Source: Clostridiales bacterium
GTDB lineage: Bacteria; Bacillota; Clostridia; Christensenellales; CAG-138
Assembly: GCA_012517905.1 (NCBI GenBank)
Contig: JAAYUE010000010.1
Span: 1-59,351 of the forward strand
Reading direction: 5' to 3'
DNA length: 59,351 bases
This document shows positions 22,333 through 33,993 of the stretch, piece after piece. Positions within the stretch are counted from its first letter, which is position 1; each line of letters begins with the position of its first letter. A program made the translations under genes and the position numbers. The notes under the pieces are model-generated. The model ran no database searches, was not told the DNA's origin, and worked only from the letters and a program-made list of their open reading frames with translations.

Positions 22333-24195
22333 ATGACGATGATATGGACCGTAATACGGCTGATCGCGTTTCTGCTCTCCGCGGCGGGGTATGTCGCCTA
22401 TGCGCGCGCATACCTGAAAATCCCCGTCCGCGCGAGCTATATCTTCGTGTTTTCCTCCCTCGCGCTGCTCATGTATCTCGCCGGGCTTGCGGGCGTTTTG
22501 GCCTATGCGGCATATGCGCTCTTCGGCGGCGGACTGATCTTGCTTCTCGTTCTGATCTGGAACAAAAAAATCTCGCTTGCGTATAACATCTCCTCGCTCA
22601 GCGCGCTCAACATCGCGTTTGTCGTCGTATTCGGCGCCATCGCCGCCTCGCTGGTCAATACGCTGTTTGTGCACTACGACAATTTCTCCCATTGGGCGGT
22701 CGTCGTGAAATACATGCTGGTGACCGACCGCATTCCGGACGCGGTCAGCGCGATCATCGACTTCAAGAGCTATCCGCTCGGCAGCTCGTCGTTTCTCTAC
22801 TATATCGGCCGCATCGTTGGCAACGGCGAGGGCGTCATGCTCATCGGCCAGGCGATATTGCTCTTTGCCAGCTTTTATGCGGTGTTCGGCGTCATCCGGG
22901 ACAACAAGCGGTTCCTGCTCGCGGCGCTGCTCGGCCTCGGCTGCGCGTCCATGGCGTATTTCAACATCAGCATCCGCATCAACAACCTGCTCGTGGACTT
23001 CTTGCTTCCCGCGCTGGCGCTCGCCGCCGTCGGGGCGATGCAGTCCGAACGCAAAAGCTGCTGGATTGCGTGTCTGTCTAGCCTGCCGGTGCTGGGACTA
23101 TTGGCCATCGTGAAAAACACCGGCATTTTCTTTGCGCTGCTGGGATTTGTGGTGCTGGTCTACCGCGCCGTGCAGTTTCAGCGGGCGGACGCGAAGCTGC
23201 GTCCCTTCTACTGGGTGGCGATCGGAACCATCGTTCTCTCGCTCGTGCCGCTGATCCTCTGGAATGTGCATACGTCCCTCGCGTTTCCGGCGGGGTCCTC
23301 CAAGTTCAGCTACGATTTTCAGACGCTTTCGTCGTTTTCAATCGATAAGACGCCCGAGCAGATCGGGTCCATCGTTCGGCTGTTTTTCCAGACGGTCACG
23401 TCGCCCGGCCAGCTGACCACGTTCGGCTTTCTGCTCTATAACGGCATCGCGCTTGCGGCGTATCTCGTCGCGCGGTTTGTGTTTCACAAGCGCTGGAAGC
23501 TGCTTGGCACGCTGCTGCTGCTCGATCTCGGCGTCGTTCTCTATTACGGCGGCATATTGGCCATGTATATCCTGTCCATGCCGCTGGACGAGGCGCTGCG
23601 CCTCGCGGGCTTTGAGCGGTATGCATCGAGCATGATCCTGTTTTTCATCGGCGCGCTCGCCATGCGGCTGACGATGGACGCGGAAGATTCGTTTTATTAC
23701 CAGCAGGGGGAACAGCGGGACTACCACGCGTTTCGCAGCCTGACCTCGAAAAACATCTATCAGGTGGCGACGGTGCTGCTCTCGGTCGTCGCGTCGCTGA
23801 TTCTGATTTCCGAGCTCAACGGCATGAATACCATCAAGCGCGCGTATGCCGACTCTCTGCCGGCAAAGGTGGAGGCCATGGTAGGGGACAACTGGCATGC
23901 GCCGGACAACGACACGCGATATCTCTTTTACGCCACGGATCAGGACGATCAGGTTTCGAGCTATTATCTGCCGTATGTCGCGCGGTATTTCCTCTTTGCC
24001 TCGCAGGCGGACGCGGTGAGCACGTTTACCGACGACGCGTTTATGGGACAGATTCAAACCTACGATCGATTTGTCATTCTGGAAAGCACGCCCGCCATCC
24101 GCGCCTATATGCAGGCGCACGCGGGCCTTCCCGGCGATCCGGGCGTTTACGACGTGCGCGAGACGTTTCCGGAGGCCGTGATCCCGGGAGAATAG
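22333..24195 (+). CDS. Large polytopic membrane protein, probable partner of the GT2
   Basis: Encodes 620 residues with about 11-12 hydrophobic segments between residues 1 and 500, then a soluble C-terminal region of about 115 residues. Between early helices there is a loop with HYDNFSHWAVVVKYML and DFKSYPLGSSSFLYYIG, which recalls the acidic first loop of GT-C type lipid-linked glycosyltransferases, but I cannot assign a family. It starts about 100 bases after the GT2 gene with no terminator between, so the two are probably co-transcribed. A role in polymer modification, assembly or export is inference. Confidence 0.7.
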   Translation: MTMIWTVIRLIAFLLSAAGYVAYARAYLKIPVRASYIFVFSSLALLMYLAGLAGVLAYAAYALFGGGLILLLVLIWNKKISLAYNISSLSALNIAFVVVFGAIAASLVNTLFVHYDNFSHWAVVVKYMLVTDRIPDAVSAIIDFKSYPLGSSSFLYYIGRIVGNGEGVMLIGQAILLFASFYAVFGVIRDNKRFLLAALLGLGCASMAYFNISIRINNLLVDFLLPALALAAVGAMQSERKSCWIACLSSLPVLGLLAIVKNTGIFFALLGFVVLVYRAVQFQRADAKLRPFYWVAIGTIVLSLVPLILWNVHTSLAFPAGSSKFSYDFQTLSSFSIDKTPEQIGSIVRLFFQTVTSPGQLTTFGFLLYNGIALAAYLVARFVFHKRWKLLGTLLLLDLGVVLYYGGILAMYILSMPLDEALRLAGFERYASSMILFFIGALAMRLTMDAEDSFYYQQGEQRDYHAFRSLTSKNIYQVATVLLSVVASLILISELNGMNTIKRAYADSLPAKVEAMVGDNWHAPDNDTRYLFYATDQDDQVSSYYLPYVARYFLFASQADAVSTFTDDAFMGQIQTYDRFVILESTPAIRAYMQAHAGLPGDPGVYDVRETFPEAVIPGE

Positions 24196-24266
24196 GGAGT
24201 TGGCGCAGGCCGCGGGAGGCCCGTCGTAAAATCTTGCATATATTATATATTTTTTCCGTGAAACGC

Positions 24267-24295
24267 TTGCAATTTATGCTCAAACATGATAAATT
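24267..24295 (+). promoter_or_regulatory. Sigma-A promoter of the aromatic operon
   Basis: TTGCAA (24267-24272) and TAAATT (24290-24295) are 17 bases apart, about 40 bases before the leader peptide. Confidence 0.65.
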
Positions 24296-24335
24296 GTCAC
24301 CAATCGCAACAACGAAAGCGAAAAGGAAACGTTTT

Positions 24336-24431
24336 ATGACCAGCATCGCCCGCACAGCCGAATACCGCTACTTTTACTTTACCGGCTTTTATTTCGGTAA
24401 GGTTTCGTTCGGTTTGGCTGGACAACGGTGA
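24336..24431 (+). CDS. Tyr/Phe-rich leader peptide of the aromatic operon
   Basis: A 31-codon frame with its own AAGGAAAC ribosome binding site. Residues 10-25 contain four Tyr and five Phe, including the run YRYFYFTGFYF. Stalling of a ribosome in this run when charged Tyr- or Phe-tRNA is scarce would control folding of the downstream RNA, as for pheL or trpL in enteric bacteria. It has no other apparent function. It lies between the promoter at 24267 and aroF. Confidence 0.85.
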   Translation: MTSIARTAEYRYFYFTGFYFGKVSFGLAGQR

Positions 24432-24494
24432 TCGCAGAATAAAACGCGCGTTACGATCGCTAAGCACCGCAGCCGAACCGGCTGCGGTTTTTTT
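24355..24494 (+). promoter_or_regulatory. Ribosome-mediated transcription attenuator (segments 1-4)
   Basis: Four pairing segments can be read directly. Segment 1 is CAGCCGAATACCG (24355-24367), inside the leader peptide just before and at the first Tyr codons. Segment 2 is CGGTTTGGCTG (24410-24420). Segment 3 is CAGCCGAACCG (24470-24480). Segment 4 is CGGCTGCGGT (24479-24488). Segment 2 pairs with 1 (one bulge) or with 3 (all positions, one G-U); segment 3 with 4 forms the terminator. A ribosome stalled on the Tyr/Phe codons would block segment 1, favour 2:3 and allow readthrough. Confidence 0.85.
24466..24494 (+). terminator. Attenuator terminator
   Basis: ACCGCAGCCG and CGGCTGCGGT form a ten-base-pair stem around AAC, followed by a run of seven T. 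Confidence 0.92.
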
Positions 24495-24514
24495 ACAGCC
24501 GGAGGGAGAAAGCA

Positions 24515-25534
24515 ATGATCGTCATACTCAAGCCAAACCCGAATCCAGACCAACTGGAGAGCCTGAAAAACTGGCTGCTCGGCAAGGGCATCCAAATCCA
24601 CACCAGCCTCGGAACGAGCCATATGATCCTCGGCCTCGTCGGGGACACGTCCACGCTGGACATCGACCTGATCAGCGCGCTGGATATCGTCGAGGACGTC
24701 AAGCGCGTGCAGGAGCCTTACAAAAACGCCAACCGCAAGTTCCATCCCGAGGACACCGTTATCCGGGTGGGCGATACGCAGATCGGCGGCGGCACGCTGA
24801 CGATCATGGCGGGGCCCTGCTCGGTGGAGTCCGAAGAGCAGATCGTCGCCGTGGCAAAGGCCGTCAAGGCCAGCGGCGCGACCATGCTGCGCGGCGGCGC
24901 GTTCAAGCCGCGCACGTCCCCGTATTCGTTCCAGGGCATGGGCGCGGAGGGACTGCGCCTGCTCAAGCTCGCGCGGGAAGAGACGGGGCTGCCAATCGTG
25001 AGCGAAATCATGGACACGTCCCAGATTTCGCTGTTCGACGACGTGGATGTCATCCAGGTCGGCGCGCGAAACATGCAAAACTTTAACCTCCTGAAATTAC
25101 TCGGCGCGCAGGAAAAGCCGGTCATGATCAAGCGCGGCCTTTCCTCCACCTATGAAGAATGGCTCATGAGCGCGGAATACGTCATGGCCAACGGCAACGA
25201 GCAGGTCGTCCTGTGCGAGCGCGGCATCCGCACCTTTGAAACCTACACGCGAAACACGCTGGACCTCTCCGCCGTTCCGGTGCTGCGGCACCTGACGCAT
25301 CTGCCGGTGATCATCGATCCCAGCCATGCGACGGGTAAATATGCGCTGGTCGCGCCGCTGGCGATGGGCGCGGTGGCCACGGGCTGCGACGGGCTGCTCA
25401 TCGAGGTGCACAACGACCCCGCGCATGCGCTCAGCGACGGGCCGCAGTCCCTGAACCCCGAAGCCTTCGACCGGCTGAACAAAAGACTGCTCGCGCTGCA
25501 CGCCTTCCTGTCCGAAGGGGAGGGAGCGAAATGA
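24515..25534 (+). CDS. aroF: 3-deoxy-7-phosphoheptulonate (DAHP) synthase, type I-beta
   Basis: Encodes 339 residues: an N-terminal ferredoxin-like regulatory domain (about 1-75), as in Thermotoga-type enzymes, followed by a TIM barrel. Landmarks are IMAGPCSVESEEQIV, LRGGAFKPRTSPYSFQG, VIQVGARNMQNF, PVMIKRGLSST and the metal-binding VIIDPSHATGKY and EVHNDP. It makes DAHP from PEP and erythrose 4-phosphate, the entry to the shikimate pathway. The N-terminal domain usually carries feedback inhibition by Tyr or Phe. It is the first enzyme gene after the attenuator and overlaps tyrA by four bases. Confidence 0.95.
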   Translation: MIVILKPNPNPDQLESLKNWLLGKGIQIHTSLGTSHMILGLVGDTSTLDIDLISALDIVEDVKRVQEPYKNANRKFHPEDTVIRVGDTQIGGGTLTIMAGPCSVESEEQIVAVAKAVKASGATMLRGGAFKPRTSPYSFQGMGAEGLRLLKLAREETGLPIVSEIMDTSQISLFDDVDVIQVGARNMQNFNLLKLLGAQEKPVMIKRGLSSTYEEWLMSAEYVMANGNEQVVLCERGIRTFETYTRNTLDLSAVPVLRHLTHLPVIIDPSHATGKYALVAPLAMGAVATGCDGLLIEVHNDPAHALSDGPQSLNPEAFDRLNKRLLALHAFLSEGEGAK

Positions 25535-26367
25535 ACGTCGGCATCGTCGGCCTTGGCCTCATCGGCGGGTCGATGGCAAAGAGCATCAAAATTCGCACGG
25601 CGCATACGGTCTGGGGCCTCGACCTCGACGCGGAGACGATGATGCTCGCGCGGCTCAGCGGCGCCATCGACGGCACGCTGACCAGTGAAACGCTGGCGCA
25701 GTGCGATCTCGTGCTCGTCGCCATCCGTCCCGCGGCCGCGGTGAACTGGGTGCAGGACAACGCGGAGCACATCGCAAAAACGGCCATTCTCGTGGACCTC
25801 TGCGGCGTCAAGCGCAGCGTCTGCGCGGCGATCGGACCGATTGCGAAAGAGCGCGGCTTTGCCTACATCGGCGGGCACCCGATGGCGGGGCGCGAGCGCG
25901 GCGGGTTTGTGCACTCCAGTGTGGAGCTCTATACCGGCGCGTCGATGATCCTCACGCCGGACGAGCACACCGACATGCGCATGCTTGAGACGCTCAAGTC
26001 CTTCTTTACGGACATTGGTTTCGCGGGACTGACGTTTTCCACGCCGGACGAGCACGACCGCATCGTCGCCTACACCTCGCAGCTGGCGCATCTCGTTTCG
26101 AGTGCATATGTCAAGTCCCCCGAGGCGCAGCGCAGGCGTGGCTTTTCGGCGGGCAGCTTTCGGGACATGACGCGCGTGGCGCATCTCGACGAGGCGATGT
26201 GGACGGAGCTGTTTCTCGACGACGCGGACTACCTTGCCGAGCAGCTCGATATTCTGATCGACCATCTGAACGAATACCGCGACGCGCTCGGCGCGCGGGA
26301 TGCCGCGCGCCTGCAGGCGCTGCTGAAAGACGGGCGCGAAAAGAAAGCGACGGCGGGAGGGAACTAG
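25531..26367 (+). CDS. tyrA: Prephenate dehydrogenase
   Basis: Encodes 278 residues. The NAD site is VGIVGLGLIGGSMAKSI at the N-terminus. Catalytic-region motifs are YIGGHPMAGRERGGF, ILTPDEHTD and DEHDRIVAYTSQLAHLVSSA. There is no fused chorismate mutase and no C-terminal ACT domain; mutase activity would come from PheA. It commits prephenate to tyrosine. Confidence 0.93.
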   Translation: MNVGIVGLGLIGGSMAKSIKIRTAHTVWGLDLDAETMMLARLSGAIDGTLTSETLAQCDLVLVAIRPAAAVNWVQDNAEHIAKTAILVDLCGVKRSVCAAIGPIAKERGFAYIGGHPMAGRERGGFVHSSVELYTGASMILTPDEHTDMRMLETLKSFFTDIGFAGLTFSTPDEHDRIVAYTSQLAHLVSSAYVKSPEAQRRRGFSAGSFRDMTRVAHLDEAMWTELFLDDADYLAEQLDILIDHLNEYRDALGARDAARLQALLKDGREKKATAGGN

Positions 26368-26372
26368 CGGAT

Positions 26373-27443
26373 ATGGAACATCGCGTCATCCCCGTGCGCG
26401 TGCGGGAAGGGTACGACGTCGTCATCGGCAATGGCCTGCTCCAGGAGAGCGGGCGGCTGATCCGCGCGGCGCTGGGCGAATGCCGCCTTGCGCTCGTCAC
26501 GGACGATAACGTTGCAGGCCTGTACCTCGAAGCGCTGATGGACAATCTCGCGCAGGCGGGATACGACGCGTGTTCGTTTGTTTTTCCGGCGGGCGAAGCG
26601 CACAAGCGCATGGATACGCTCTCGCAGATGCTGGAGTTTTTTGCGGCCGAACGGCTGACGCGAAAGGACTGCGTCCTCGCGCTCGGCGGCGGCGTGACCG
26701 GAGACATGGCGGGGTTTGCCGCGGGGTGCTACCTGCGCGGCGTGCGCTATGTGCAGTTGCCGACGACGCTGCTCGCCGCTGTGGACTCGTCGGTCGGCGG
26801 CAAGACGGCGGTCGACCTCGCGGCGGGCAAAAACCTGGCGGGGTTGTTTCATCAGCCGTCGCTCGTGCTTTGCGATACGGACTGCTTTGCTACGCTCGCG
26901 CCGAAAGAGTTTGCAAACGGCGCGGCGGAGGCGATCAAGACCGGCATTCTGGACGACGAATCGCTGTTTGCGCTGTTTGAATCGGGGGACGTGCGGGAGC
27001 GTGTCGGCGAGATCGTCGCGCGGTGCGTGGCCTTCAAGGCGCGCGTGGTCGAGCAGGACGAGACGGAATCCTGCCTGCGCAAGACGCTCAATCTCGGGCA
27101 TACCGCCGCCCACGCAATCGAGCGCTGCAGCGGCTTTTCAACGCCGCACGGGCACGCCGTCGCGGTCGGGCTGGCCATCATCGCCCGCGCCGCCGAGCGG
27201 CTGGGCTGGGCGCAGGAGCCGATCGCGGCGCGCATTGAACAAGTGTTGACCAAAAACGGCTTGCCTGTGACCACGGAGTTTTCGCCGGAGGCGCTGGCCG
27301 AGGCCGCGCTTTCGGACAAGAAGCGTGCGGGCGGAAGCATCACGCTCGTCGTTCCGCACCGCATCGGCGACTGCTCGCTGATCGATTTGCCCGTCGAGCG
27401 CCTTGCCGAGGTGTTTCGCGCGGGGATGGGGGCGGGCGCATGA
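26373..27443 (+). CDS. aroB: 3-dehydroquinate synthase
   Basis: Encodes 356 residues from the ATG at 26373. NAD- and zinc-binding landmarks are LALGGGVTGDMAGFAA, QLPTTLLAAVDSSVGGKTAVD, NLAGLFHQP, EAIKTGIL, LNLGHTAAHAIE and TPHGHAVAVG. Converts DAHP to 3-dehydroquinate. It begins six bases after tyrA and overlaps aroA by four. Confidence 0.96.
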   Translation: MEHRVIPVRVREGYDVVIGNGLLQESGRLIRAALGECRLALVTDDNVAGLYLEALMDNLAQAGYDACSFVFPAGEAHKRMDTLSQMLEFFAAERLTRKDCVLALGGGVTGDMAGFAAGCYLRGVRYVQLPTTLLAAVDSSVGGKTAVDLAAGKNLAGLFHQPSLVLCDTDCFATLAPKEFANGAAEAIKTGILDDESLFALFESGDVRERVGEIVARCVAFKARVVEQDETESCLRKTLNLGHTAAHAIERCSGFSTPHGHAVAVGLAIIARAAERLGWAQEPIAARIEQVLTKNGLPVTTEFSPEALAEAALSDKKRAGGSITLVVPHRIGDCSLIDLPVERLAEVFRAGMGAGA

Positions 27444-28693
27444 ACGTTTCGATGATGCCCGCGCCGCTGAACGGTACGATCTCCGCCATCGCCTCCAAGT
27501 CCGATGCGCACCGCCTGCTCATCCTCGCGGCGCTGAGCCGTGGCGAGACGCGTCTCGTCATGGAGCGCCGCTCGGAGGACATCGACGCGACCATCGGCTG
27601 CCTTCGCGCGCTCGGCGCGCAACTTTCGCCGGAATCCGGCGGCGTTCTCGTGCGCGGCATCGAGCAAGCGGCAAAGAACCCGTTGCTCGACTGCAAGGAG
27701 AGCGGTTCGACGTTTCGGTTTCTGCTGCCTGTGGCAGCGGCGCTGTGCGACCGCGCGCGCTTCACCGGCGGCGGACGGCTGCCGGAGCGGCCCGTCGGCG
27801 AGCTGATGCGCGCCATGGAGGAGCACGGCGTTTCGTTTTCCGCCGACCGTCTGCCGTTTACAACGAGCGGCCGGCTCAACGGCGGAGACTACGCGCTGCC
27901 GGGCAACGTCAGCTCGCAGTACCTCACGGGGCTGCTGCTCGCGCTGCCGTTGCTGAAAGAATTGAGCCGGATTACGCTGACCACGCGGCTGGAGTCCGCC
28001 GCATATGTGGACATTACGCTGCACGCGCTGACGCGCTTTGGCGCGGAGGTGCGCGAGGCGAAGGGCGTCTATTCGATTTCCGGCGGGCAGGCGATCGTCT
28101 CGCCCGGCGAACTGCGCGTGGACGGGGACTGGTCGAACGCCGCCTTTTTCCTCGCGGCTGGCGCGCTCGGCGCGCCGGTGCGCGTCACCGGCCTCGACCT
28201 CGGTTCTCCGCAGGGGGATAAGGCGATTCTGGACGCGCTGCTCGCGTTCGGCGCGCCGGTGGAGGCGTCGTCCGGTTCGGTCGCGGTTTCGCCCGCGCCG
28301 CTCAAAGGCTGCGAAATCGACGTCGGCGATACGCCGGACCTGCTGCCCGTGCTCGCGGTGCTCGGCGCCGCGGCGGAGGGCGAGACGCTGCTGGTCAACG
28401 CCGCGCGCCTGCGGCTCAAGGAGAGCGACCGGCTTGCCTCCGTTTCCGCCATGCTGCGCGCGCTTGGCGGCTCGGTCACCGAACTGCCGGATGCGCTGAT
28501 CGTCCGCGGAGCGAAGCTGACGGGCGGCGCGGTGGAGAGCGCGCGAGACCATCGCATCGCCATGGCGGCGGCGATCGCGTCCGTTTGCTGTAAAGGCGAG
28601 GTAACGATCCTCGGCGCGGACGCGGTGAATAAGTCGTATCCTACATTTTTTGAAGATTTTAACCGGTTGGGAGGGAACGCGCATGTCGTCTGA
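27440..28693 (+). CDS. aroA: 3-phosphoshikimate 1-carboxyvinyltransferase (EPSP synthase)
   Basis: Encodes 417 residues, slightly shorter than average. Motifs seen: SKSDAHRLLILAAL, ESGSTFRFLLPVAAAL (the GSTxRF-like phosphate site), LPGNVSSQYLTGLLLALPLL, VDGDWSNAAFFLAAGAL, LRLKESDRL and RDHRIAMAAAIASV. The lysine, arginine and aspartate positions of the active site appear intact. It overlaps both aroB and aroC. Confidence 0.95.
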   Translation: MNVSMMPAPLNGTISAIASKSDAHRLLILAALSRGETRLVMERRSEDIDATIGCLRALGAQLSPESGGVLVRGIEQAAKNPLLDCKESGSTFRFLLPVAAALCDRARFTGGGRLPERPVGELMRAMEEHGVSFSADRLPFTTSGRLNGGDYALPGNVSSQYLTGLLLALPLLKELSRITLTTRLESAAYVDITLHALTRFGAEVREAKGVYSISGGQAIVSPGELRVDGDWSNAAFFLAAGALGAPVRVTGLDLGSPQGDKAILDALLAFGAPVEASSGSVAVSPAPLKGCEIDVGDTPDLLPVLAVLGAAAEGETLLVNAARLRLKESDRLASVSAMLRALGGSVTELPDALIVRGAKLTGGAVESARDHRIAMAAAIASVCCKGEVTILGADAVNKSYPTFFEDFNRLGGNAHVV

Positions 28694-29777
28694 ATTGGGA
28701 ACCGTCCTGCGCATCGGCGTGTTCGGCGAATCGCACGGGCGCGCAATCGGCGTGACGATGCAGGGCCTGCCCGCGGGCGAGGCGGTCGATATGGCGGCGC
28801 TGGAGGCGTTTCTGGAGCGCCGCCGGCCCGGCAGAAACGCACTCTCGACCGCGCGGGTCGAGCCGGACAGACCGGTGTTCCTCTCCGGCATGCTGGAAGG
28901 CAAAACCACCGGCAGCCCGCTCTGCGCGATCATTGAAAACGCGGACGCGCGCTCGCGCGACTATACGGAATTTGCCGACAAGCCCCGTCCCGGGCACGCG
29001 GACTACACCGCCTATCTCAAATGGGGCGGTGCGGCGGACATGCGCGGCGGCGGACACTTTTCGGGGCGGCTGACCGCGCCGCTCTGCATCGCAGGCGGCA
29101 TTGCAAAGCAGATTCTCGCGCGGCGGGGCGTCGCAATCGGGGCGCATCTTGCCGCCGTTGCAGGCGTCGCGGACGAGCCGTTTCCGCTGCTGCCGACCGG
29201 CGCGCTGTTTGACGAAATCGCGCAAAAGGACTTTCCGGTGCTGGACGAGGCGAAGGGCAAGCGCATGCAGACGGCGATTTTGACCGCGTCCCGCGAGGGG
29301 GACTCCGTCGGCGGCGTAATCGAATGCGCGGCCATCGGACTGCCCGCGGGGCTCGGCGGCCCGATGTTTGACGGCGTGGAAAACCGCCTCGCGCACGCGT
29401 TGTTCGGCATTCCCGCCGTCAAGGGCGTGGAGTTCGGCGCGGGGTTTACCGCGGCGGCCATGCGAGGCAGCGAGCACAACGATCCCTTCCGCATCGGCGC
29501 GGACGGATCGGTCACGACCGAAACAAACCACGCCGGCGGCATTCTCGGCGGCATCACCACGGGACAGCCGCTTGTGCTGCGCATCGCCCTGAAACCAACG
29601 CCGTCCATCGCCAAAGCGCAGCGCACCGTGAGCCTGTCGAAGCATGAAAACGCGGAACTCGTCGTCAAAGGACGCCATGACCCCTGCGTCGCGCATCGCG
29701 CGGTGCCGGTGGCGGAGGCTGTGACGGCGCTGGTTCTGCTGGATTTGATACTGGAGGAGAAACGAGAATGGATTTAG
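28683..29777 (+). CDS. aroC: Chorismate synthase
   Basis: Encodes 364 residues from the ATG at 28683, which overlaps the aroA end. FMN- and substrate-site motifs are FGESHGRAIGVTMQGLPAG, RPGHADYTAYLKWG, GGGHFSGRLTA, GSEHNDPF, TNHAGGILGGITTG and KGRHDPCVAHRAVPV. It makes chorismate and needs reduced FMN. The end overlaps the pheA start by ten bases. Confidence 0.96.
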   Translation: MSSELGTVLRIGVFGESHGRAIGVTMQGLPAGEAVDMAALEAFLERRRPGRNALSTARVEPDRPVFLSGMLEGKTTGSPLCAIIENADARSRDYTEFADKPRPGHADYTAYLKWGGAADMRGGGHFSGRLTAPLCIAGGIAKQILARRGVAIGAHLAAVAGVADEPFPLLPTGALFDEIAQKDFPVLDEAKGKRMQTAILTASREGDSVGGVIECAAIGLPAGLGGPMFDGVENRLAHALFGIPAVKGVEFGAGFTAAAMRGSEHNDPFRIGADGSVTTETNHAGGILGGITTGQPLVLRIALKPTPSIAKAQRTVSLSKHENAELVVKGRHDPCVAHRAVPVAEAVTALVLLDLILEEKREWI

Positions 29778-30907
29778 AACAACTTCGCACCCAGATCGAC
29801 GCCGTGGACGGCCAGATGCTCAAGCTCTTTCTCGAGCGCATGCACCTTGGTGAGCAGATCGCCGCGGTTAAGCGCGAAAGCGAACTGCCCGTGCTCAGCA
29901 AATCGCGCGAGCGGGAAGTCCTTGCGCGCGTGCAGGCGGAGGCGGGAGAGATGGAGCCTTACGCCTATCAGCTTTTTACGACGCTGATCGAGCTGAACAA
30001 GGCGCGCCAGACGGAGCTCTACGCGCAGCCTTCTCGGGTGCGCGGGCTCATCGAGGGCGCGCTCGCCGCGCCGGAGGAGACGTTTCCCCGCACGGGGACG
30101 GTCGCCTGCCAGGGCGTCGAGGGTGCGAACTCCCAGGCCGCCTGCGACAAGCTGCTGCCGCGCGGCAATATCGTCTACGTCAAGAGCTTTGAGGCGGTGT
30201 TCGACGCGGTGGAGTCCGGCTTGTGCAAGTTTGGCGTGCTGCCCATTGAAAACAGCGCGAACGGCTCCGTGCGCACGGTCTATGACCTGCTGCAGAGAAA
30301 GCGCTTCTCCATCGTGCGCGGCACCACGCTGCACATCCACCACGAACTGATGGCAAAGCCGGGCACGAAGCTTGGCGACATCACAGAGATCTATTCCCAT
30401 GAGCAGGGCATCGGCCAATGCAGCCGGTACTTGAGCAGCCTCAACGGCAAGGTGAAGGTCATCCCCTGCGCGAATACGGCAGTCGCCTCCAAGATGGTCG
30501 CCGAGGGAATCAATCCCCACGCGGCGGCGATCAGCTCGCACGCCTGCGCCGAACTCTACGGGCTGAGCGTGCTCAAGGACGACATACAGGACAGCGAAAA
30601 TAACTACACGCGCTTCATCTGCATCGCGAAAAACCCGGTCATCTATGCGGGATCGAACAAGATCAGCCTGATTCTGGACTGCAAAAACGAACCGGGCGCG
30701 CTGAACAGCATCCTGGCAAAGATATCCGCGTACGGTGTGAACACCAGCAAGATCGAGAGCTGTCCGGTTACGGGGCGGAATTTCGAATTCATCTTCTTTT
30801 TCGATCTCGACGCGTCCGTGCGCGAACGCGGCGTGCTGCCCATGCTCGAAGAGCTCGAGCGCATCAGCGAGAGCTTTACCTTCCTCGGCAACTACTCGGT
30901 GGTGTGA
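29768..30907 (+). CDS. pheA: Bifunctional chorismate mutase / prephenate dehydratase (P-protein)
   Basis: Encodes 379 residues in three domains. Chorismate mutase AroQ type (about 1-85): LRTQIDAVDGQMLKLFLERM with Arg/Lys of the active site. Prephenate dehydratase (about 110-285): VACQGVEGANSQAAC, LPIENSANGSV and the catalytic Thr-Arg-Phe in NNYTRFICIA. ACT domain (about 295-375): NEPGALNSILAKISAYGVN and KIESCPV, the phenylalanine-binding region. It takes chorismate to phenylpyruvate and supplies prephenate to TyrA. Confidence 0.95.
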   Translation: MDLEQLRTQIDAVDGQMLKLFLERMHLGEQIAAVKRESELPVLSKSREREVLARVQAEAGEMEPYAYQLFTTLIELNKARQTELYAQPSRVRGLIEGALAAPEETFPRTGTVACQGVEGANSQAACDKLLPRGNIVYVKSFEAVFDAVESGLCKFGVLPIENSANGSVRTVYDLLQRKRFSIVRGTTLHIHHELMAKPGTKLGDITEIYSHEQGIGQCSRYLSSLNGKVKVIPCANTAVASKMVAEGINPHAAAISSHACAELYGLSVLKDDIQDSENNYTRFICIAKNPVIYAGSNKISLILDCKNEPGALNSILAKISAYGVNTSKIESCPVTGRNFEFIFFFDLDASVRERGVLPMLEELERISESFTFLGNYSVV

Positions 30908-30910
30908 TCC

Positions 30911-32152
30911 GTGGATAAGCGCATCTACGGGCTGATCGGCCGCTCGCTGCTGCACAGCTATTCGGTGCCGATCCATCGCGCGCTGGGAAACGAAGCCTAT
31001 GCGCTCTATCCGCTCGAGCCGGAGGCGCTGGGCGAATTTCTCCTGCGCAAAGACGTCGCGGGACTGAACGTAACGATTCCCTACAAGCGGGACGTGATGG
31101 CTTATTGCGCCGAGCTGGATGAAACCGCGCGCGAAATCGGCAGCGTAAACACGCTGGTGCGCCGCGAAGACGGCACGCTCAAAGGCTATAATACCGACGC
31201 GTACGGATTTCGCTATATGGCGATGCGCGCGGGCATTTCGTTTGCGGATCAAAAGGTCGTGATCCTTGGCAGCGGCGGTTCGTCGCTCATGGTGCGCTAC
31301 GTCGCGCAGCGCGGCGGCGCGCGGCAGATCGTCGTCGTCTCGCGCAGCGGCGCGGACCACTACGGCAACCTCGATCGCCACGCCGACGCGCAGGTGCTCG
31401 TCAACACGACTCCCGTCGGCACATACCCGCAAACAGGGGAGATGCCTGTCGATCCCGCGCTGTTTCCGGCCTGCGAAGGCGTGCTGGACCTCGTATACAA
31501 CCCGCGCAGGACCGCGCTGTTGTTTCGCGCGCGAGAGCTTGGCATTTCGTGCTCGGACGGGTTGAGCATGCTGGTTGCGCAGGCAAAGGCCGCGGAAGAG
31601 CTGTTTTTTGGCAAGGCGATAGCGGACGGCGAGAACGAGCGCATCCTGCGCCTGCTGAGCCAAACCATGCAGAACATCGTGCTCATCGGCATGCCGGGCA
31701 GCGGCAAGAGCACGGTCGGCGAGGCGCTGGCGCGTCTGACCGGCCGGAAGATGGTCGATCTGGACGAGCAGATTGCGCGCGCGGCCGGATGTTCGATTCC
31801 GGAGATCTTCACGCACAGCGGCGAGGCGGCGTTTCGAAAGCTGGAGCGCGAACAGACGCAGGTCTGGGGCAGGGAAAGCGGGCTGATTCTGGTCACGGGC
31901 GGCGGCGTCGTCAAGGACGAACGGAACTACCCCGCGCTGAAGCAGAACGGACGCCTCTATGAAATTCGGCGCGACATCGCGCTGCTTGCGCGGGAAGGCA
32001 GGCCGCTTTCGGCAAATGCCGACCTGAGCGACATGCTGCGCGAGCGCGGCCCGCTTTACGAGCGGTTTCGCGACGCGCGCATCGCCAACGACGCGCTGCC
32101 GGAGCAGGCTGCCGAGCAGATCTGGCAGGACTTTTGCGACAACGCGGACTGA
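30911..32152 (+). CDS. aroE-aroK: Shikimate dehydrogenase-shikimate kinase fusion
   Basis: Encodes 413 residues from a GTG start four bases after pheA. AroE part (about 1-245): SYSVPIHRALG substrate site, catalytic Lys in NVTIPYKRDVM, Asp in GYNTDAYGFRY, and NADP loop LGSGGSSLMV. AroK part (about 253-413): begins at an internal Met, has Walker A GMPGSGKST (about 259-267), the shikimate-binding DLDEQIARAAG and FRKLEREQ, and TGGGVV. The AroE half is a little shorter than free enzymes. The fusion supplies two consecutive, non-adjacent-domain steps (dehydroshikimate to shikimate 3-phosphate) in one polypeptide. Confidence 0.92.
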   Translation: MDKRIYGLIGRSLLHSYSVPIHRALGNEAYALYPLEPEALGEFLLRKDVAGLNVTIPYKRDVMAYCAELDETAREIGSVNTLVRREDGTLKGYNTDAYGFRYMAMRAGISFADQKVVILGSGGSSLMVRYVAQRGGARQIVVVSRSGADHYGNLDRHADAQVLVNTTPVGTYPQTGEMPVDPALFPACEGVLDLVYNPRRTALLFRARELGISCSDGLSMLVAQAKAAEELFFGKAIADGENERILRLLSQTMQNIVLIGMPGSGKSTVGEALARLTGRKMVDLDEQIARAAGCSIPEIFTHSGEAAFRKLEREQTQVWGRESGLILVTGGGVVKDERNYPALKQNGRLYEIRRDIALLAREGRPLSANADLSDMLRERGPLYERFRDARIANDALPEQAAEQIWQDFCDNAD

Positions 32153-32182
32153 ACCATTTCGATACAAAGCGGAGGAAAACGC

Positions 32183-32611
32183 ATGAAAATCCTCGTGATC
32201 AACGGACCGAACCTGAACCTGCTGGGCCTGCGCGAACCGGACATCTACGGAAAGAGCACGTATTCCGATCTCGTCGGGATGATCCGCGCGGAGGCGGACC
32301 GGCTCGGCGTGGAGGTCGAGTGTATGCAGAGCAACCACGAAGGCGCGCTGGTGGACGCGATTCAGGGCGCCTACGGCACGGCGGACGGCATCGTGATCAA
32401 TCCCGGCGCGTATACGCACACCAGCATCGCGCTGCTGGATGCGGTCAAAACGGTCGGCATTCCGACCGTGGAGGTGCATATCTCCGACGTGGACATTCGA
32501 GAAGCGTTTCGGCGCGTGTCCTATATCCGCCCCGCGTGCGTCGCGAGTATCAAGGGCCACGGGCTGGAAGGGTATCTTGAGGCGCTCCGATTGCTGGTAA
32601 AACAAGATTGA
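32183..32611 (+). CDS. aroQ: 3-dehydroquinate dehydratase, type II
   Basis: Encodes 142 residues, the standard length. NGPNLNLLGLREPDIYG with the catalytic Tyr in YGKSTY, NPGAYTHTSIALLDA, VEVHISDVDIREAFRR and GHGLEGYLEAL are all present. It dehydrates 3-dehydroquinate and usually forms dodecamers. It is the last gene of the operon, with a GGAGG site. Confidence 0.96.
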   Translation: MKILVINGPNLNLLGLREPDIYGKSTYSDLVGMIRAEADRLGVEVECMQSNHEGALVDAIQGAYGTADGIVINPGAYTHTSIALLDAVKTVGIPTVEVHISDVDIREAFRRVSYIRPACVASIKGHGLEGYLEALRLLVKQD

Positions 32612-32621
32612 CTGACCGCAA

Positions 32622-32664
32622 AAAAACGCTTTCGAACTCAGGTTCGGAAGCGTTTTTCGTTTTG
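32622..32664. terminator. Bidirectional terminator ending the aromatic operon
   Basis: AAAAACGCTTTCGAAC and GTTCGGAAGCGTTTTT pair over 16 positions around TCAG. It separates aroQ from a convergent transporter gene. Confidence 0.92.
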
Positions 32665-32676
32665 CGATACGTTCGA

Positions 32677-33993
32677 CTATTTTGGCTGTTCGTAGCGAAT
32701 AGGGTCTTTGGCCGTAACGCGCCTGACGAATAGCAGCAGGACGAGCCCGATGATCAGAAAGAGCAGGATGGAGCCGATCGCCCAATACAGCCCGTAGTGC
32801 TCGGCGTGCAACGTGTCCGCGCCGTGGTTGAGATACCAGTTGTTCATGCGAAACGACAGCGTGCCGAATACGAGCGGGCCGACGAAGGTCGAGGTGCGCC
32901 CGGCGACCGAGAGAAAGCCGTAGAATTCCGCAGTCTTTGCCGCGGGGGCGAGCTGACTGACCATTGAGCGGCTGACTGCCTGCGCACCGGAGAGCGAAAA
33001 ACCGGCAAAGAACCCGACCACGAAGAACAGCGTGAGGCTGTCCGCGAAAAACAGCGCGACGATGCACGCAATCAGCATGAGCAGCGAGATCAGAATAGAG
33101 TCCTTGCTGCTGAGCCGGTCGGAGATCTTGCCAAAGAGCAGCGCGCCGGCCGCGCCGGAGATCTGGATGACGATGACAAAGAGGATCAGCTGGATCTGCG
33201 TCATGCCAAAGAGGGTAGCGCCGATGATGGCGGCGAAGTCCATCAGCATCATGATGCCGTCGTTATAGATCAGAAACGCGACCGTATATTTGATGAACTC
33301 CCGATAGCTCTTGATGGAGCGGAACGTATACGCGAGGCGCTCGAACGCGATCCGGATGTTGCCTTCCTGCGGTTTTTCGCCGGAATTCTCGTCCGCTTCC
33401 TTCACCCAGAGCAGCGTCGGCACGGAGGAGAGCAGGTAGAACGCGGCGGTGATGAGAAACGCGACCGGAATCGGGAACCCTTTTACAAGCTGAATGGGGA
33501 TGAGCACGAGAACGAGCGCGGCGATACCGCCGAGCATGCCGATCGCCCAGCCTTTGCCGGAGACGGAACCGATGTTTTCCGGCTTCGATACGGAGGTCAA
33601 CAGCGCGTCGTAAAACACCTGCGCGCCGCGGTAGCCGATCTCCGCGAGGATGAAGTAAAGCATGCCGGTCAGAACATCCCCTTTGCGCACGAAAAAGAGC
33701 ATCGCGGTAAAGACGACGGACAATGCGGTGAATCCCATGAGGAAGGCTTTCTTCGACTTGGAGTAATCCGCAATGGTGCCGAGGATGGGGGAGATCACGG
33801 CGACGAGCACCGCCGCAATGCCGACCGAGAGGCCCCAGAGGCGCGTTCCGTCCGCGCCGCCGACGACCGTGTTTTTGAAATACGCCGAATAGACGGCGAG
33901 GAGTATGACGGAGGCATAGGCGGAATTTCCGAAGTCATAAAAATACCAGGACCAGCGGGGACGCCGGGAAGGATCGCGCGGCTTTTGCTTCAT
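32677..33993 (-). CDS. MFS transporter, UMF1/Atg22-like
   Basis: Encodes 438 residues from the ATG at 33993, with AGGAGA eight bases upstream. It has 12 hydrophobic segments. The opening SWYFYDFGNSAYASVILLAVY is typical of the UMF1 family, related to the yeast vacuolar effluxer Atg22 (shown here in two overlapping parts: SWYFYDFGNSAY and YASVILLAVY). Bacterial members are proton-coupled permeases of unknown substrate. A cytoplasmic loop of about 40 residues lies mid-protein. Confidence 0.82.
   Translation of the reverse strand: MKQKPRDPSRRPRWSWYFYDFGNSAYASVILLAVYSAYFKNTVVGGADGTRLWGLSVGIAAVLVAVISPILGTIADYSKSKKAFLMGFTALSVVFTAMLFFVRKGDVLTGMLYFILAEIGYRGAQVFYDALLTSVSKPENIGSVSGKGWAIGMLGGIAALVLVLIPIQLVKGFPIPVAFLITAAFYLLSSVPTLLWVKEADENSGEKPQEGNIRIAFERLAYTFRSIKSYREFIKYTVAFLIYNDGIMMLMDFAAIIGATLFGMTQIQLILFVIVIQISGAAGALLFGKISDRLSSKDSILISLLMLIACIVALFFADSLTLFFVVGFFAGFSLSGAQAVSRSMVSQLAPAAKTAEFYGFLSVAGRTSTFVGPLVFGTLSFRMNNWYLNHGADTLHAEHYGLYWAIGSILLFLIIGLVLLLFVRRVTAKDPIRYEQPK

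Follow-up and report, generated by a model that had tools for sequence, protein, structure and literature searches.

Which signal controls an operon that holds the whole shikimate pathway together with the branches to tyrosine and phenylalanine? The question arises at one locus of the window, by which we mean the whole stretch of DNA analysed (59,351 nucleotides of contig JAAYUE010000010.1 from a Clostridiales bacterium). There, the series aroF-tyrA-aroB-aroA-aroC-pheA-aroEK-aroQ codes for every one of the seven shikimate enzymes and for TyrA and PheA as well:

24515 to 25534, + strand: aroF, DAHP synthase (type Ib), by NCBIfam
25531 to 26367, + strand: tyrA, prephenate dehydrogenase, by NCBIfam, below the curated cut-off of its best model
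26373 to 27443, + strand: aroB, 3-dehydroquinate synthase, by NCBIfam, start chosen by eye
27440 to 28693, + strand: aroA, EPSP synthase, by NCBIfam
28683 to 29777, + strand: aroC, chorismate synthase, by NCBIfam, start chosen by eye
29768 to 30907, + strand: pheA, chorismate mutase-prephenate dehydratase, by NCBIfam, below the best model's curated cut-off
30911 to 32152, + strand: aroE-aroK fusion, shikimate dehydrogenase plus shikimate kinase, by NCBIfam, below the best model's curated cut-off
32183 to 32611, + strand: aroQ, type II dehydroquinase, by NCBIfam
32626 to 32657, + strand: likely operon-end terminator hairpin, seen by eye

This naming bears out the first-pass annotation, made from the letters alone, which had placed all shikimate genes plus tyrA and pheA behind one attenuator. 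The gaps between the genes run from -11 to +30 nt (two starts having been chosen by eye), and for this reason we count aroF to aroQ as one operon; terminator-like sites on both strands of 24100-32800, the leader's own included, number 8 against 8.4 in shuffles. The genome of the window has a single DAHP synthase match at E 0.001, which is aroF, and no match to the type II enzyme, so that a leader in front of aroF would control the only pathway entry found. We infer from this arrangement that the entire operon would be governed by a single leader.

The leader is located between an ORF ending at 24195, which has no NCBIfam match, and the start of aroF at 24515, and its parts are the following:

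24267 to 24295, + strand: promoter-like pair TTGCAA (24267-24272), 17 nt, TAAATT (24290-24295), from the sequence
24321 to 24329, + strand: Shine-Dalgarno-like site AAAAGGAAA of the leader, from a sequence scan
24336 to 24431, + strand: leader peptide ORF, ATG to TGA, 31 aa with nine Tyr/Phe, from an ORF scan
24355 to 24366, + strand: segment 1 (CAGCCGAATACC), a close copy of segment 3, from folding and alignment
24363 to 24395, + strand: control codons 10-20, the aromatic ones being Y Y F Y F F Y F, from the stall folding model
24377 to 24402, + strand: inner hairpin of 1:2, arms CTTTACC (24377-24383) and GGTAAGG (24396-24402), from the 42-locus alignment
24410 to 24420, + strand: segment 2 (CGGTTTGGCTG), within the final leader codons, from pairing and alignment
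24466 to 24494, + strand: intrinsic terminator (3:4), 10 pairs, 3-nt loop and T run, from sequence and alignment
24470 to 24480, + strand: segment 3 (CAGCCGAACCG), across the 5' arm and loop of the terminator, from pairing and alignment
24479 to 24488, + strand: segment 4, part of terminator 3:4

On re-reading the sequence, the position, coordinates and counts first given for this leader all held, including a 31-codon frame with nine Tyr/Phe in residues 10-25. The 31-residue peptide, MTSIARTAEYRYFYFTGFYFGKVSFGLAGQR, has them as Y10, Y12, F13, Y14, F15, F18, Y19, F20 and F25, so its control codons call for the very amino acids, Tyr and Phe, that the downstream pathway makes. With a start codon and a Shine-Dalgarno-like site, the ORF is predicted to be translatable. 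The promoter claim stood in part: the pair with its 17-nt gap is at the proposed site, but by our own count it matches just 8 of 12 consensus bases, and our promoter scan, having a threshold of 9, did not list it. Comparable pairs with a 17-nt gap were seen by eye in five of six relatives (L002, L003, L006, L007 and L008), and the sixth, L004, had none similar in the upstream stretch inspected. A promoter upstream of the leader at 24267-24295 is plausible on this sequence likeness. An inverted repeat, CAATTTAT...ATAAATTG, was also noticed by eye across it (24271-24297), and could be an operator or chance.

The RNA offers pairings that exclude one another. Segment 2 pairs with segment 3 at all 11 positions, one of them G-U, exactly as first described; segment 1 (24355-24366) can pair with segment 2 (24410-24420); and the terminator at 24466-24494, with 8 of its 10 stem pairs G-C and a T run, is as canonical as had been claimed. 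Such logic demands that segments 1 and 3 be near-copies, and they are. The fold of 24300-24500 reaches -71 kcal/mol against a shuffle mean of -52.5 (z -4.39) and beats all 200 shuffles, and pairing and folding together confirm four segments with exclusive 1:2, 2:3 and 3:4 pairings. We also folded the window's leader with a ribosome placed on it and the transcript ending where segment 4 begins: a ribosome at codons 10-21 gave 10 pairs of 2:3, and one at codons 24-29 gave none. Once the terminator is complete, 3:4 is favoured at equilibrium at every ribosome position (p 0.95-0.98, in a run offset by one base), so the switch must be kinetic, decided during transcription; we therefore rejected an equilibrium fold of the entire leader as a test, as it cannot reveal switching.

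These elements would work as follows. A ribosome held up at any one of the codons from 10 to 20 would cover segment 1 and leave segment 2 free; 2:3 would then form while segment 4 had yet to be transcribed, and the polymerase would read through. A ribosome reaching the stop codon would cover segment 2, and 3:4 would terminate transcription; an untranslated leader would fold as 1:2 plus 3:4 and terminate too. We consider it very probable that this is a classical ribosome-mediated transcription attenuator, likely activating the aroF-aroQ operon in a shortage of charged tRNA-Tyr or tRNA-Phe, a reading with which anatomy, gene content and conservation all fit.

Conservation was looked for upstream of DAHP synthase genes in near relatives, with a scan for a short ORF with a ribosome site and at least 7 Tyr/Phe in 16 residues. 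This short-ORF scan found a Tyr/Phe-rich leader at 65 of 86 near loci, a set that counts the window and an apparent duplicate (L005, apparently the same genome as L007, dropped after this count) and in which L049 and L080 were hand-picked. By chance the scan finds 15 in 1720 shuffled stretches and 2 in 501 control stretches in front of other long ORFs. The Tyr/Phe leader at aroF is no chance feature. Among the 57 near loci having 5 kb of downstream sequence, 40 keep the order aroF-tyrA-aroB-aroA-aroC-pheA, as do 38 of the 45 that bear a leader. Six Tyr/Phe leaders before DAHP synthase (L035, L049, L053, L058, L075 and L077) are on MAG contigs labelled, as binned, Fretibacterium, Oligosphaeraceae, Flexilinea, Lentisphaeria and Planctomycetia. 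The idea of transfer of the leader between phyla was dropped, as its support would be MAG contig labels whose binning is unverified.

Forty-two leader loci were aligned for covariation, with slid pairings and 500 shuffles as controls. For 3:4, 97.6% of cells are paired (slid versions at most 43.2%) and both sides have changed in 6 of 9 pairs (slid versions 2-5); for 2:3 the values are 90.2% (at most 51.7%) and 6 of 11 pairs (2-4); and for 1:2, 85.9% of cells are paired (at most 51.9%). None of the 500 shuffles matched any of these three paired-cell levels. The 2:3 and 3:4 pairings, mutually exclusive, are thus conserved with compensatory changes beyond both controls, and the peptide frames and covarying segments that the first-pass annotation had proposed to seek upstream of aroF orthologues are both present there. 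The loop of the terminator is kept as segment 2's partner, a constraint that a terminator alone would hardly impose. The 1:2 pairing is the weak part of the evidence: its double changes (6 of 15 pairs, 12 cells) are no excess over slid versions (4-7 pairs, 6-17 cells), and its further pair types are equalled by 302 of 500 shuffles. Its inner hairpin, with 97.6% of cells paired, is firmer than the outer helix, which has 75.6% and appears in the naked fold of 18 of the 42 loci.

When stalls were modelled at all 42 loci, some aromatic stall yielded at least 70% of 2:3 in 35 of them, 7 never attained that level, and a ribosome at the stop codon yielded 3:4 in 41. At L029, L036 and L037, three of the 42, the leader stop codon comes directly before segment 2, and a ribosome halted there would still mask some of that segment; L059, L065, L066, L071, L072 and L086, outside the alignment, resemble this design.

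How far does the leader reach beyond the near relatives? In an even draw of 147 genomes from the window's class, called clostridial here after the names of near relatives, 107 had a DAHP synthase match, and we read 141 gene copies in 102 of them, leaving out the window's own genome, three with partial matches (G088, G129 and G153) and one not listed (G148), as well as partial or unlisted second copies. A Tyr/Phe leader was found in 58 of these 102 genomes, about 3 or 4 of the 58 being probably chance (L170, L205, L216 and perhaps L148), and 44 gave no signal. A terminator follows 52 of the 58 leaders, compared with 31 of 74 copies without a leader. The segments differ in sequence between subfamilies and retain their pairing: near the window segments 2 and 3 read GGTTTGGCTG and CAGCCAAACC, and in subfamilies of the class draw TAATGAGT and ACTCATTA, or GTAAAGCCCG and CGGGCTTTGC. 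Segment 2 pairs better with the terminator arm of its own locus than with the arms of other loci (means 19.1 and 14.3, n=52 class loci), topping 95% of swaps in 20 of the 52. Swapping segment 3 among near relatives was rejected as a control (own mean -16.1 versus swapped -13.9 kcal/mol, with the own pairing surpassing 95% of swaps at no more than 13 of 62 loci), because relatives share the segment's sequence, and the even class draw served better. Against shuffled versions of segment 3, the 2:3 duplex has z below -1.5 in 34 of 52 class loci and 41 of 75 near ones.

T-boxes are the expected regulator of DAHP synthase genes in such clostridia, and Phe_leader is the name of an Rfam family. Searched with Rfam 15 (4227 models), the window's leader had no match at gathering and, up to E 10, just three weak unrelated ones; the T-box model (RF00230) had no match there, and 0 of 20 class leader loci tested matched Rfam at gathering. 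T-boxes, which bind tRNA directly, do serve the same gene elsewhere: they were found in 10 of 40 upstream stretches without a leader, the search covering 40 of the 57 copies from 37 genomes without a leader signal. At E 0.001 the T-box model matches the genome of the window 13 times. Three of these matches exceed the Rfam cut-off; the sites before trpE and pheST both fall short of it, and other sites are before hisS, metG, a citramalate synthase gene and valS (the last by eye). In this genome, T-boxes would likely read Trp and Phe charging, and the leader the common pathway.

The attenuator also stands before other genes. We built a covariance model from the window's subfamily (L035 and L007 excluded from its alignment; E-values rough), which gives one match of meaningful score in the window's genome and, at E 0.001, matches in 18 of 391 class genomes: 14 before aroF (window included), 1 before leuA, 1 before an AMP-dependent ligase gene and 2, L115 and L118, rejected as attenuators for their chance look. 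At E 0.003, 94 of 349 genomes in one family of the class match. The next gene is aroF in 69 of 93 loci read in that family (26 of 28, with leader starts picked by hand, plus 43 of 65); in the batch of 65, 17 more were assigned by hand, with a family search on representatives only, and five (L320, L345, L353, L358 and L360) have no gene assigned.

Codons and genes go together in these copies. Leaders of aroF have at least two Tyr and two Phe in 60 of 65 cases, and 0 of 65 have no Tyr, a count that omits L296 and L303 (no leader called) and L261 and L270 (leader unclear); for near and class leaders the corresponding values are 62 of 64 and 53 of 58. Leaders of pheA found with the same model have Phe only, with no Tyr in 3 of 3 (two among the 93 loci, the third at a second model match, L288). 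In genomes G499 and G404 alike, the leader before aroF-tyrA is rich in Tyr and also has some Phe, and the one before pheA has Phe only. One case (L107:1480-1655) is a Leu-rich attenuator before leuA, with 7 Leu in the leader MKSQFSAQLNLLNLALLLQG; in that genome no Tyr/Phe leader was observed before aroF. At L334 a leader with 7 F and no Y precedes a phenylacetate-CoA ligase-like gene, and at L348, L351, L354 and L357 YYYFYFGF leaders precede a sodium:solute symporter gene (SSF; family search on L348), which from its leader is a candidate Tyr/Phe importer. The Tyr/Cys leader of the one AMP-dependent ligase match fits no obvious meaning. The stall logic was the same in the 10 non-aroF and 2 aroF examples folded, a consistency check only, since segment 2 was chosen by best pairing.

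A further group of such copies belongs to a lyase of the tyrosine phenol-lyase/tryptophanase family, which follows the attenuator at 12 loci of one genus (L314, L315, L316, L318, L323, L324, L327, L329, L330, L339, L343 and L355); in 12 of 12, the leader has 5-6 Tyr in a row and 0-1 Phe in its 14-residue core. The lyase scores 359 bits against a cut-off of 720.7, as a fragment cut by the stretch read, and its nearest solved structures are tyrosine phenol-lyases at 323 bits versus tryptophanase at 280; on these matches it is a TPL-like member of the family, not a proven tyrosine phenol-lyase. We show from these comparisons that copies before other genes mostly carry other, apparently fitting codons. 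All lyase cases coming from one genus, the swaps are not independent events; no other evidence speaks as strongly for the codons, Tyr among them, being what is read.

The attenuator could be the same and yet answer in vivo to Phe alone, or Tyr alone, the other codons being passengers. A precedent lends this weight, as the Phe-Tyr-Phe leader of C. glutamicum aroR is reported, in the accessible part of PMC11802643 (citing Neshat 2014), to answer to Phe, Tyr being without effect. Within aroF-headed operons, moreover, Tyr share is not clearly linked to tyrA (0.45 with it, n=43, versus 0.35 without, n=5; P=0.26), and we rejected the notion that the one tracks the other, the difference not being significant. 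Codon usage may also be counted here: in 42 leaders TTT prevails among the Phe codons (126 versus 44 TTC, the stem codon excluded), whereas the DAHP synthase genes of the same loci prefer TTC (221 versus 103 TTT), though the window's own operon favours TTT (57 versus 26); Tyr codons in the 42 leaders show no clear bias. Against this, Tyr is kept in all 65 aroF leaders and dropped in 4 of 4 leaders of pheA and the phenylacetate-CoA ligase, and at least two of each residue are found in nearly all near and class leaders. That one leader senses both amino acids, as first proposed, draws support from the natural variants (Phe only for pheA, almost only Tyr for the TPL-like lyase), but the report on C. 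glutamicum points the other way. We regard a single effective amino acid as unlikely, and infer that both Tyr and Phe would act on the leader.

An arrest peptide or ligand-sensing RNA, on which free Tyr or Phe or a protein would act in place of tRNA charging, is very unlikely. The residues GK and FGLA are conserved in near relatives, as they might be in an arrest peptide; they coincide, however, with the inner hairpin and segment 2, the order of the aromatic residues varies, tails in other subfamilies are unrelated while segment 2 is kept, and the leader has no Rfam riboswitch or T-box. A constitutive weak terminator beside a chance ORF, with no regulation, is scarcely credible, being contradicted by conservation and covariation.

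Ribosome-mediated attenuation is thus the reading we retain, and its type is already known: the window's leader joins an existing kind. The enteric pheA and trp leaders and the multivalent thr and ilv leaders have the same order of parts and the same logic, and leaders sensing more than one amino acid are known from thr and ilv. Those systems share the anatomy of the window's leader but are proteobacterial, and no Rfam family matches it. The nearest precedent, compared by description alone, is aroR of C. glutamicum, where an aromatic leader peptide likewise precedes a DAHP synthase operon under ribosome-mediated attenuation, with three aromatic residues named versus nine here, and in Actinobacteria (PMC11802643 and PMC4046766, accessible parts). 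The uORFC-13-1 motif, set side by side by description only, is a candidate uORF before aroF with a U run coding at least one Phe and an adjoining terminator, described from 24 representatives in Acholeplasma and environmental sequences only (accessible part of PMC8632094). Leader-peptide attenuators with terminator and antiterminator are described for Bacillales, Eubacteriales and Erysipelotrichales (PMC2965389 and PMC9413887, accessible parts); they share this architecture and differ in having His codons and his genes. The contrast first drawn between enteric leaders and Firmicutes that usually use T-boxes or TRAP for aromatic genes was therefore too sharp, such His leaders and the Acholeplasma aroF uORF having already been predicted. 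Our literature search, a weak negative with subscription papers thinly covered, returned no report of a clostridial Tyr/Phe leader family. Three things seem new: how widely the leader is spread, an operon that covers the full pathway behind a leader with both kinds of codon, and copies that have been re-coded.

We hypothesise, giving the idea slightly less than an even chance, that one inherited clostridial attenuator has passed by copying from one gene to the next and been re-coded each time for the amino acid served, so that the leader tells the direction of the enzyme. If so, Tyr plus Phe would stand for the shikimate operon and the sodium symporter, Phe for pheA and the phenylacetate-CoA ligase, Leu for leuA and Tyr for the tyrosine-phenol-lyase-like enzyme. 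A switch thrown by Tyr starvation before a tyrosine lyase is sensible only if the enzyme runs towards Tyr formation or the switch is reversed. Thirteen genomes have a Tyr-lyase leader, counting that of L345, whose contig breaks off ahead of the gene. A DAHP synthase match at E 1e-10 is absent from 11 of the 13, including all 5 with a completeness of 90% or more; the genome that holds the phenylacetate-CoA ligase copy has one. Under this hypothesis, the lyase would make Tyr from phenol when Tyr is scarce, most of the genomes concerned having no DAHP synthase match, and in a scarcity of Phe the ligase would open a route to it from phenylacetate.

Of the two signals looked for at DAHP synthase in this clostridial class, leader-peptide attenuation is the more frequent. 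Natural codon swaps make its specificity testable, and leader codons could aid the annotation of transporters and reversible enzymes in anaerobes.
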